Positions 22,106 to 25,543 of a stretch of DNA of 42,506 bases are shown one piece after another. The notes under the pieces were generated by a model. The model did not search any database. It had not been told where the DNA came from and saw only the letters and a list, made by a program, of their open reading frames with translations. Where the stretch lies: NCBI GenBank assembly GCA_012838615.1, contig DUOV01000053.1, forward strand, positions 1 through 42,506, in the 5' to 3' direction. A program made the translations under genes and the position numbers. This DNA is from Clostridia bacterium. GTDB lineage: Bacteria > Bacillota > DUOV01 > Zhaonellaceae. Position 1 is the stretch's first letter. Each line of letters opens with the position of its first letter.

Positions 22106-22660
22106 TTGCAAATCAAAGGCCTTCGAATACCTATTATCTTTATATGTGCATGTTTATCATTAGCTATATTGACAGGAGGCCAGTGGGCTTATAAGGAGTT
22201 TTCCGTTGAACGTCCTTTTATTAGGGAAATTATTAATCTTAACAACGTTGAAAATGTTGAGCTTATAGGTGATTCTGACTTACCAAAGCTTGTAATAAAA
22301 CTAGGTTCTAACGCAGATTTGGCTAGTTTTATAGCTCAACTTAGGGAAATAGTTGCCAGTAATTATAAACGACAAGTAGAACTTCGATTAATTGACGAGA
22401 GAAATGAAGAATTAAACGATGTATTACTTACCAGTCGATTTTATATTTACGAAGCTCTTGTTAATGGCAATTATACTGAAATGTATTTTGAACTTGAACA
22501 GGTTCTGAACTCATTAGATCTTGACGAATGGGATTTAACTATGGACAATCAGTATATTTATTTAAAATTATACCAAGATTCTGCTTATCTTTATGAAATT
22601 ATACCTCTCAATCGGCAAATGTTAGTAATAGGTGGTGATATACCATATGCCTCTAATTGA
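22106..22660 (+). CDS. Membrane-anchored protein of unknown function
   Basis: This 184-aa protein was not recognised. It has a single N-terminal hydrophobic segment (about residues 8-27) with basic residues before it, so the rest should lie outside the membrane. The outer part looks like mixed alpha/beta, with alternating strands (NVENVELIG, LPKLVIKLG, YIYLKLYQ) and many acidic residues. The start is TTG, preceded by GGGGGTGA. Its end overlaps the following FtsH-like gene by 14 nt, suggesting coupled translation and a shared task, perhaps as substrate or partner of that protease; this last point is inference. Confidence 0.72.
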   Translation: MQIKGLRIPIIFICACLSLAILTGGQWAYKEFSVERPFIREIINLNNVENVELIGDSDLPKLVIKLGSNADLASFIAQLREIVASNYKRQVELRLIDERNEELNDVLLTSRFYIYEALVNGNYTEMYFELEQVLNSLDLDEWDLTMDNQYIYLKLYQDSAYLYEIIPLNRQMLVIGGDIPYASN

Positions 22661-24128
22661 AGCTAGCCTAGGGATTGCCATAGGCTTTTTAACTTTCTTG
22701 ATTATAGTTGGTTACGACGTTTTTCCATTTATTCTACTTTTAGCTTTTGGCCTTGCTTTTTATTTTATAGTAGTACAAAAAGGCACAGTAGCAATTAAAT
22801 CTAGAGGAAATTGCCAGTCAAGTACTACAGTAACTTTTCAAGATATTGGGGGTCAAAACATTGCCAAGAAGGAACTGATTGAAGCCCTTGATTTTATAAT
22901 TACATCCGAGAAAACAAAGTCTTTAGGCATTAGGCCGTTAAAAGGTATTTTGCTGACAGGTCCTCCGGGTACTGGAAAAACGATGCTTGCTAAGGCTGCT
23001 GCTGCCTATACTGATGCCGTATTCATTGCTACTGCAGGTTCTGAGTTTATTGAAATGTATGCTGGTATTGGGGCTCAGCGTGTTAGAAGCATTTTTAAAA
23101 AAGCCAGGGATTTGGCCAAAAAGAAAGACAAGCCACGAGCTATTATATTTATTGATGAGATAGAAGTAGTAGGTGGGAAACGGGGCAGCCATACCAGTCA
23201 TCTAGAATATGATCAGACTTTAAACCAATTGCTGGTTGAAATGGATGGGATAGAAACCGATAAAGATGTAAATATTCTTGTGGTAGCTGCTACTAATAGG
23301 GTTGACATGCTGGATTCAGCTTTACTACGTCCTGGAAGATTTGATCGTGTAGTTAAAGTAGATTTACCTGATAAAGAAGGACGTTTACAAATTCTAAGAA
23401 TTCATACAGCCAATAAGCCATTAGATAACGATGTTGACTTAGAAGCAGTTGCTCAAGAGACTTTTGGTTTGTCTGGTGCCCATCTAGAAAATATAACAAA
23501 TGAGGCTGCTATTTATGCTTTGCGGGACAAAGGCGAAAAAATAACTCAGAAACATTTTATTGAAGCCATTGAAAAAGTTATGTTGGGCGAAAAATTAGAT
23601 AAAAAACCCGCTCTTAAAGAGTTAGAACGTGTTACTGTTCATGAATCCGGGCATGCCATAATGAGTGAGGTGCTTAGGCCCGGTTCAGTAGCTCATGTAA
23701 CGATTACTCCTCGCGGAGGAGCTTTAGGTTATATGCGTCAGAAACCTGAAAATGATATGTATCTTTATACGAAAAGTTACTTGCTAAACCAGATTAAAAT
23801 AGCGGTGGCTGGCTCCGTAGCTGAAGAAATATTTTTTGGAGAGCGGAGTACAGGAGCTGTTAATGATTTTAATGAAGCTATAAAGTTAGCTAAACAAATT
23901 GTATTGTCTGGCCTGTCAGATTTAGGTATCGTTGATATGAATAAGGAAGATGATTCTGTCAGCCAAGAAGTAAAAAAAATTGTGCATTGTCAAGTTAATG
24001 AAGCAAGAACTATTTTACTAAGTAAAAGGCCCTTGTTAGAAGCTTTAATAGAACAACTAAAACTTAACGAAAAAGTAACTGGGAAGCAATTACAAGATTT
24101 AGTACACAAATTTAGTAAGTGCGCATAA
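22647..24128 (+). CDS. Short FtsH-like membrane AAA+ zinc protease
   Basis: The protein has 493 aa from ATG 22647, with GGTGGTG nine nt before; the ORF-track GTG at 22632 is part of that site. Two closely spaced hydrophobic segments (about residues 5-22 and 25-44) replace the usual pair separated by an extracytoplasmic domain. The AAA+ domain has Walker A GPPGTGKT (105-112), Walker B IIFIDEI, and the second region of homology ending LLRPGRFDR. The M41 protease domain has HESGH (H332, E333, H336) and the third zinc ligand D407 in AVNDFNEA. FtsH proper is about 600-650 aa, so this is a reduced paralogue. All catalytic residues are intact. It probably forms a hexamer at the membrane. Confidence 0.88.
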   Translation: MPLIEASLGIAIGFLTFLIIVGYDVFPFILLLAFGLAFYFIVVQKGTVAIKSRGNCQSSTTVTFQDIGGQNIAKKELIEALDFIITSEKTKSLGIRPLKGILLTGPPGTGKTMLAKAAAAYTDAVFIATAGSEFIEMYAGIGAQRVRSIFKKARDLAKKKDKPRAIIFIDEIEVVGGKRGSHTSHLEYDQTLNQLLVEMDGIETDKDVNILVVAATNRVDMLDSALLRPGRFDRVVKVDLPDKEGRLQILRIHTANKPLDNDVDLEAVAQETFGLSGAHLENITNEAAIYALRDKGEKITQKHFIEAIEKVMLGEKLDKKPALKELERVTVHESGHAIMSEVLRPGSVAHVTITPRGGALGYMRQKPENDMYLYTKSYLLNQIKIAVAGSVAEEIFFGERSTGAVNDFNEAIKLAKQIVLSGLSDLGIVDMNKEDDSVSQEVKKIVHCQVNEARTILLSKRPLLEALIEQLKLNEKVTGKQLQDLVHKFSKCA

Positions 24129-24157
24129 TTTTTTAGGGCAAAGGGAGGTGGATTATT

Positions 24158-25543
24158 ACGGATAGAGGCAAAGTCAAAATTCTATTAGTTGCTTTGTTGG
24201 GAGCTGTCATTGCCATTGCCTTGTTTAACCAAACTCAGTTTTCTTTAACCTCCCTAGATTTTCTGCTTTCATTACAATTATTTTCCAAAGGTGAAACAGA
24301 GATTAAGGTGCCACCTTTAGGTACAGTTTCTGCCCCAACTCATTTATTTCCAGTAAAAATAATATTAGTCCTAAACAATATTAATTTTAAAATTTTAGAA
24401 GAAATGATTGCTAAGGGATTTGGACAACAACAATTATTTGATAATTTACGTGTTGAATTAATTCGATTTTTGAAAATTTACTTTATAAAAATATTTATAC
24501 TAAGTGTGCTCGGGGCAACGATTGCTACTTTTTTATATTCAGGTAATCTAAAATCTTCATTAAAAAGCAGTATAATTGGTCTGTGTCTGGCAAGTACAAT
24601 CATCGGCGGAATCTACTCTGGGTATGACTATAAAAAATTTTATAATCCTGAATATTATGGAGCATTGGAGAATGCTCCTTGGATGTTGGAACTCCTTCAA
24701 GATGGTTTAGAAAAGATGGAAAAACTCGGTGAAAAAATTGAAACTGTTGCTCAAAATGTAGACGTTTTGTATAGGAATTTTGAACAAAGTGTAGCGTTCA
24801 ATCAAGGTGATGAATATACACAGATATTGCATGTATCTGATATTCACAACAACCCTATAGCATTTCGGTTTATAGAACAGATAGTAGAGAGCTTTGGTGT
24901 AGATATTATTGTAGACACAGGTGATCTGACTGATTTTGGTACTCCGTTAGAAACATTCTTTTTAGAAAAAATTGAATCTCTAGAAATTCCATATTTATTT
25001 GTAGCAGGTAATCATGATTCTCCCCAGGTAATTAATGCCTTATCTGGTGTTAATAATGTGATTAACGTAAATAAGAAAATTGTAAACGTTAAGGGTATTG
25101 ATTTTATCGGAATTAATGATCCTGCTTCGGTAAGCAACAAAGTAATTCCGCCAGCACAAGAAGAGATAAATGAGTATGCTGCACAGCTTAATGAACTTAT
25201 GAACTCTAGCCAAAGAACACCGGATATTATGTTGATTCATAATCCCCAATTGGCTAATCAATTTACAGGCCGTTTACCTACTGTTTTATTTGGGCATAGT
25301 CACCAACATGCTATTGAAATTGATAAAGGAACCGTACTTGTCAATGCAGGAACAACTGGAGCTGCTGGTATTCGGGGTCTAGGAACAACACAAGAAGTTT
25401 CGTATACCTTGGTTCTATTAAGCTTTCAGCAACAACAATTTGATACGGTCGAGGTTAAATGGCAACTTGTAGCTACGGACACTATTAAAATTTTCAATTC
25501 TAAACCCGGGTTTGTTGTTGAGCATCAAGTCTACACAAAGTAA
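24158..25543 (+). CDS. Membrane-anchored metallophosphoesterase
   Basis: The calcineurin-like phosphoesterase domain (C-terminal ~240 residues) has all metal motifs: SDIHNNP, DTGDLTD, AGNHDS, LIHNP and FGHSHQHA. The N-terminal half has hydrophobic segments near residues 8-24 and about 110-155, so the protein is anchored in the membrane. The ORF-track start (TTG 24194) has no ribosome site and lies inside the first hydrophobic segment. A good GGGAGGTG ends at 24150. The only in-frame codons at correct spacing are ATT 24155 and ACG 24158, so a non-standard start is proposed (461 aa from ACG). It starts 29 nt after the FtsH-like gene. Substrate is unknown. Confidence 0.85.
   Translation, partial: TDRGKVKILLVALLGAVIAIALFNQTQFSLTSLDFLLSLQLFSKGETEIKVPPLGTVSAPTHLFPVKIILVLNNINFKILEEMIAKGFGQQQLFDNLRVELIRFLKIYFIKIFILSVLGATIATFLYSGNLKSSLKSSIIGLCLASTIIGGIYSGYDYKKFYNPEYYGALENAPWMLELLQDGLEKMEKLGEKIETVAQNVDVLYRNFEQSVAFNQGDEYTQILHVSDIHNNPIAFRFIEQIVESFGVDIIVDTGDLTDFGTPLETFFLEKIESLEIPYLFVAGNHDSPQVINALSGVNNVINVNKKIVNVKGIDFIGINDPASVSNKVIPPAQEEINEYAAQLNELMNSSQRTPDIMLIHNPQLANQFTGRLPTVLFGHSHQHAIEIDKGTVLVNAGTTGAAGIRGLGTTQEVSYTLVLLSFQQQQFDTVEVKWQLVATDTIKIFNSKPGFVVEHQVYTK

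Follow-up and report, generated by a model that had tools for sequence, protein, structure and literature searches.

A gene for a membrane-anchored calcineurin-like metallophosphoesterase, found in a 42,506-nucleotide stretch of a Clostridia bacterium genome (contig DUOV01000053.1, positions 1-42,506, here called the window), appears to start at an AUU codon, ATT at positions 24155-24157 of the forward strand, behind a strong Shine-Dalgarno (SD) sequence. We give this reading a probability of about 0.76, a figure that, like the one behind our grading of the neighbouring ACG codon, is a judgement and not a computed probability. The strong SD and the missing canonical codon are read directly from the DNA, as is the same situation in the orthologue of a same-class relative and in other genes of the clade, and from these we infer that initiation takes place at the AUU and not at the ACG.

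The phosphoesterase gene has a strong SD and no canonical start at workable distance

Judged by its sequence, the gene encodes a membrane-anchored calcineurin-like metallophosphoesterase, on the forward strand and in a proposed frame running from ATT 24155 to 25543. It matched PF00149 with 56.9 bits, passing the curated cut-off of 21.5, and PF12850 above its cut-off, and the motif residues are kept among 12 aligned homologues; the membrane anchor was read off the hydrophobic N-terminus and not taken from a prediction tool. The protein was not assigned to the YfcE family phosphodiesterases (TIGR00040), where it scored 42.6 bits, below the cut-off of 56.25, and a sequence search of solved structures with the phosphoesterase gave no match.

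Upstream, on the same strand, lies a gene for an FtsH-like AAA protease (22632-24128), whose stop codon is the TAA at 24126-24128. In the phosphoesterase frame the last stop upstream is a TAG at 24134-24136; from 24137 onwards no further stop occurs until the one that closes the gene at 25543. The SD, GGGAGGTG, occupies 24143-24150 on the forward strand, and the frame then reads TGG (24149, overlapping its end), ATT (24152), ATT (24155), ACG (24158) and GAT (24161). Its GGAGGTG can pair with CACCTCC at the 3' end of the 16S rRNA of the relative G001, from which the anti-SD was taken, the 16S 3' end of the window genome not having been found by pattern search. The earliest canonical (ATG, GTG or TTG) in-frame codon is TTG 24194-24196, 36 nt past the ACG, within the hydrophobic membrane segment and with no SD ahead of it. 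The sequence thus agrees with a preliminary description of this DNA, which had noted an excellent ribosome site with no ATG, GTG or TTG at normal spacing and a first TTG 36 nt further on inside the hydrophobic segment; of the in-frame codons near the SD it had named ATT 24155 and ACG 24158, both present, and had passed over ATT 24152. Since RNA folding around the start gave no structure stronger than shuffled sequences (z = 1.0), sequestration of the SD by a local hairpin is unsupported.

Spacing from the last G of GGAGG or GGGGG to canonical starts in the window genome peaked at 7 nt, with 30/234 starts at 6 nt, 30/234 at 9 nt and 1/234 at 3 nt. On this distribution ATT 24152-24154, 3 nt past the GGAGG, is an unlikely start, and ATT 24155-24157, at 6 nt, is tied with ACG 24158-24160, at 9 nt. 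ATT 24155 is therefore an AUH codon (AUU, AUA or AUC) at normal SD spacing. We prefer it to ACG, since the codons available to the clade's other start-less genes are AUU or AUA.

A same-class orthologue shares the missing canonical start

The taxonomic class of the window is represented in our sample by three genomes: the window genome itself (G000), a 222-contig draft; G001, a single contig of 3.3 Mb; and G002. The only phosphoesterase orthologue found in the class is that of G001, which is 47-48% identical and also follows an FtsH-like gene, at a wider gap than in the window. That gap (L002:2900-3380) spans about 500 bases, contains repeated motifs such as GACTGGGGACT and is perhaps an inserted element. 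Following the FtsH-like gene of G002 is recA, and no phosphoesterase match was found in that genome, one of the searches having used a stricter cut-off.

The start region of the G001 orthologue reads TTTTATGGGGGG ATA CTT ATA AAC CGG; the first canonical codon in its frame is an ATG in the membrane segment. Its ATA stands 6 nt past GGGGGG, the same spacing as ATT 24155 in the window, behind an SD weaker than that of the window gene. By both protein and DNA alignment this ATA corresponds to ACG 24158 and not to ATT 24155, and the similarity between the two proteins reaches upstream of the position of TTG 24194. A non-canonical start may be shared by these two genomes, but starts elsewhere are canonical and the codons offered by the two stand at different aligned positions.

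We looked for homologues more widely. A search with the two-sequence alignment returned no matches, and one with a broader alignment returned 80 loci of unchecked class membership, which together with loci from the sampled genomes made up the homologue set. It had been put forward that the idea of a non-canonical start would be overturned if orthologues began at the TTG near 24194. The outcome speaks against a start at that TTG: in most homologues an ATG, GTG or TTG preceded by an SD is found close to the position of the ACG or upstream of it. A stricter script, applied to 101 homologues, called 59 of them clearly canonical and 36 ambiguous and flagged 6 as AUH, namely the window gene, the G001 orthologue, L015, L083, L087 and L099. 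In each of the last four there is an ATG or TTG upstream that scores lower for its SD and that we took as the true start; for L103, L107 and L108 the scanned interval holds no canonical codon, although such codons occur farther upstream. A clear absence of a canonical start was thus seen, among the 101 homologues scored, only in the window gene and its same-class orthologue, and since the other AUH-flagged loci have plausible upstream canonical codons, the non-canonical start appears confined to the window's class in this sample.

Other genes of the class with probable AUU or AUA starts

We surveyed 0.79 Mb of the window genome (577 long ORFs) and 0.80 Mb of G001 (584 long ORFs), in which 27 and 49 ORFs, respectively, carry a motif resembling an SD well ahead of their first ATG, GTG or TTG in frame. 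These candidates were sorted by eye with no formal rule, and most of them, in the window genome nearly all, have an ordinary start farther on. Four that look like real genes, with a strong SD and only AUU or AUA workable, remain in the window genome: the window gene itself, infC (ATT), ppsR (ATT) and a gene of the DUF881 family (ATA). We take the arrangement in the window gene to be more than chance. In G001 what remains is infC (ATT), rny (ATT), the phosphoesterase (ATA) and an ORF of which we are less sure. This last ORF (L224:13036-13617) has no Pfam match and reads GGGGTGAAGAT ATT, with no canonical codon for 16 codons, making it a possible AUU start.

Followed across the class, infC has an ATT start in each of the three genomes (L111, L112, L113), in keeping with infC elsewhere. 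For rny (L246, L247, L248) each genome offers ATT and also has a TTG or GTG several codons downstream, with no comparable SD. In the window genome the open frame of rny includes an ATG far upstream, likewise with no comparable SD, and the AUU outranks the canonical codons on SD strength. The codons offered by ppsR (L243, L244, L245) are ATT, ATA and ATT, and two of the genomes have a GTG or ATG there as well, a few codons farther along. The DUF881 gene of the window genome (L250) has the strong SD GAGGAGGTGA followed by ATA, and its orthologues in G001 and G002 (L251, L252) have ATG.

Alternative readings of the start region

Initiation at ACG 24158 is the alternative to which we give most weight, and we consider it unlikely. 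ACG is a near-cognate of AUG, its 9-nt distance from the GGAGG is as frequent in this genome as 6 nt, and it aligns with the ATA of G001. However, no other surveyed gene requires an ACG start, the start-less genes offering AUU or AUA, and natural bacterial ACG starts are very rare, which we counted against it. The preliminary description had left the choice between ATT and ACG open; its idea of a non-canonical start, possibly an inefficient regulatory one, is supported by the G001 orthologue and by other genes of the genome, and of the two codons we prefer ATT. It had also suggested that a sequencing error could conceal an ATG (a T at 24159), and an error of sequencing or assembly gains some plausibility from ACG being one base off ATG and from the draft state of the genome. 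Nevertheless, the orthologue in the single-contig G001 also has no canonical start there, with its ATA at the same spacing, so an error in the window would require that G001 had, by coincidence, lost its own start codon independently, and other genes of the window genome present the same pattern. We therefore regard an error as quite improbable.

A shorter protein starting at TTG 24194 is, in our estimate, slightly less probable again. Although this is the first canonical codon in frame, the absence of an SD ahead of it, the loss of the charged residues that precede the membrane segment and the similarity to G001 farther upstream all speak against it. Finally, a ribosome could in principle start at GTG 24148 in another frame, where a short open frame exists (GTG GAT TAT TAC GGA TAG), and then shift into the phosphoesterase frame. 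This GTG lies within the SD itself, and since the out-of-frame ATG of G001 is in a different relative frame, no common frameshift mechanism is apparent; we rejected this reading, whose probability we consider negligible. Initiation at AUU 24155 thus remains the preferred explanation.

Candidate AUH starts of rny and ppsR across the phylum

To score a start as AUH we required an SD score of at least 14 at the AUH codon and more than 2 above that of the best canonical codon. By this rule, which was devised after the pattern had been seen and was applied to rny, ppsR and phosphoesterase intervals picked after viewing the sequences, rny (encoding RNase Y) was AUH at 23/30 loci of the phylum and at 16/27 more, making 39/57 with all three genomes of the window's class among them (L246-L248, L283-L336), and ppsR (Kinase-PPPase, PF03618) at 18/30 and 2/13, making 20/43 (L243-L245, L256-L282, L337-L349), the phosphoesterase set being the only comparison family put through the rule. 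Many of the AUH-scored rny genes have a canonical codon with a lower SD score in the scanned stretch, for example a GTG inside AAGGAGGTG; in others the SD contains a TGA in frame, and that stretch is free of canonical codons. The AUH assignments for rny and ppsR are therefore to be taken as best candidates and not as proofs. Nothing relevant to a non-canonical rny or ppsR start came up in the parts of the literature searched, which covered few subscription journals.

Discussion

We propose that translation of the window gene would begin with fMet at AUU 24155. This codon lies 6 nt past a strong SD (GGAGGUG), which would compensate for the weakness of a start codon that IF3 discriminates against. 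By analogy with other systems, the protein would probably be made at a low level, and IF3 levels could modulate this output.

Initiation of this kind is already known elsewhere. E. coli infC, which encodes the autoregulated IF3, starts on ATT, IF3 represses non-canonical starts, and Streptomyces sigR has a GTC start under IF3 control (PMC5472188). In S. aureus, starts were mapped by profiling for cvfC1 (AUU) and for ccpN and infC (AUA), with extended SDs, and AUU- or AUA-start reporters (cvfC1, ccpN, citZ) gave roughly 10-30% of AUG (PMC13009471). A close parallel in arrangement within the class is infC, where a strong SD is followed by an AUH codon, ATT in the window genome and both relatives; however, infC encodes the autoregulated IF3 itself, whereas no connection with IF3 is known for the phosphoesterase. 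The S. aureus genes ccpN and cvfC1 also pair an AUH start with an extended SD and lie outside infC, but their proteins are unrelated and their starts were shown experimentally, while ours is inferred from sequence. Streptomyces sigR likewise has a non-canonical start behind a strong SD; unlike the window gene it uses GTC and not an AUH codon, it encodes a sigma factor, and its repression by IF3 was shown experimentally. For E. coli pcnB, Binns and Masters (2002), cited in PMC13009471, reportedly found that an AUU start limits protein synthesis. Its start codon is that of the window gene but its protein is unrelated, and the parallel in RNA metabolism fits rny and not the phosphoesterase. B. 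subtilis rny is described as having an AUG start behind an SD among the strongest of that genome (PMC10303841).

Such starts matter for annotation. Gene finders that accept only ATG, GTG and TTG would cut the phosphoesterase short within its membrane anchor and, in many of these genomes, would misplace the starts of rny and ppsR; Borrelia pncA, which has an AUU start, is still truncated in databases (PMC13398362).

The rny and ppsR pattern is of more interest than the phosphoesterase gene itself and merits a proper survey. Tentatively, and with some doubt, we suggest that the phylum keeps AUH starts behind strong SDs in infC, rny and ppsR, and in the phosphoesterase within the window's class. 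This might couple the phosphoesterase, RNase Y and PpsR, by way of IF3, to the condition of the translation machinery. If these AUH starts are real, a weak and possibly IF3-sensitive start codon would set the dosage of RNase Y phylum-wide.
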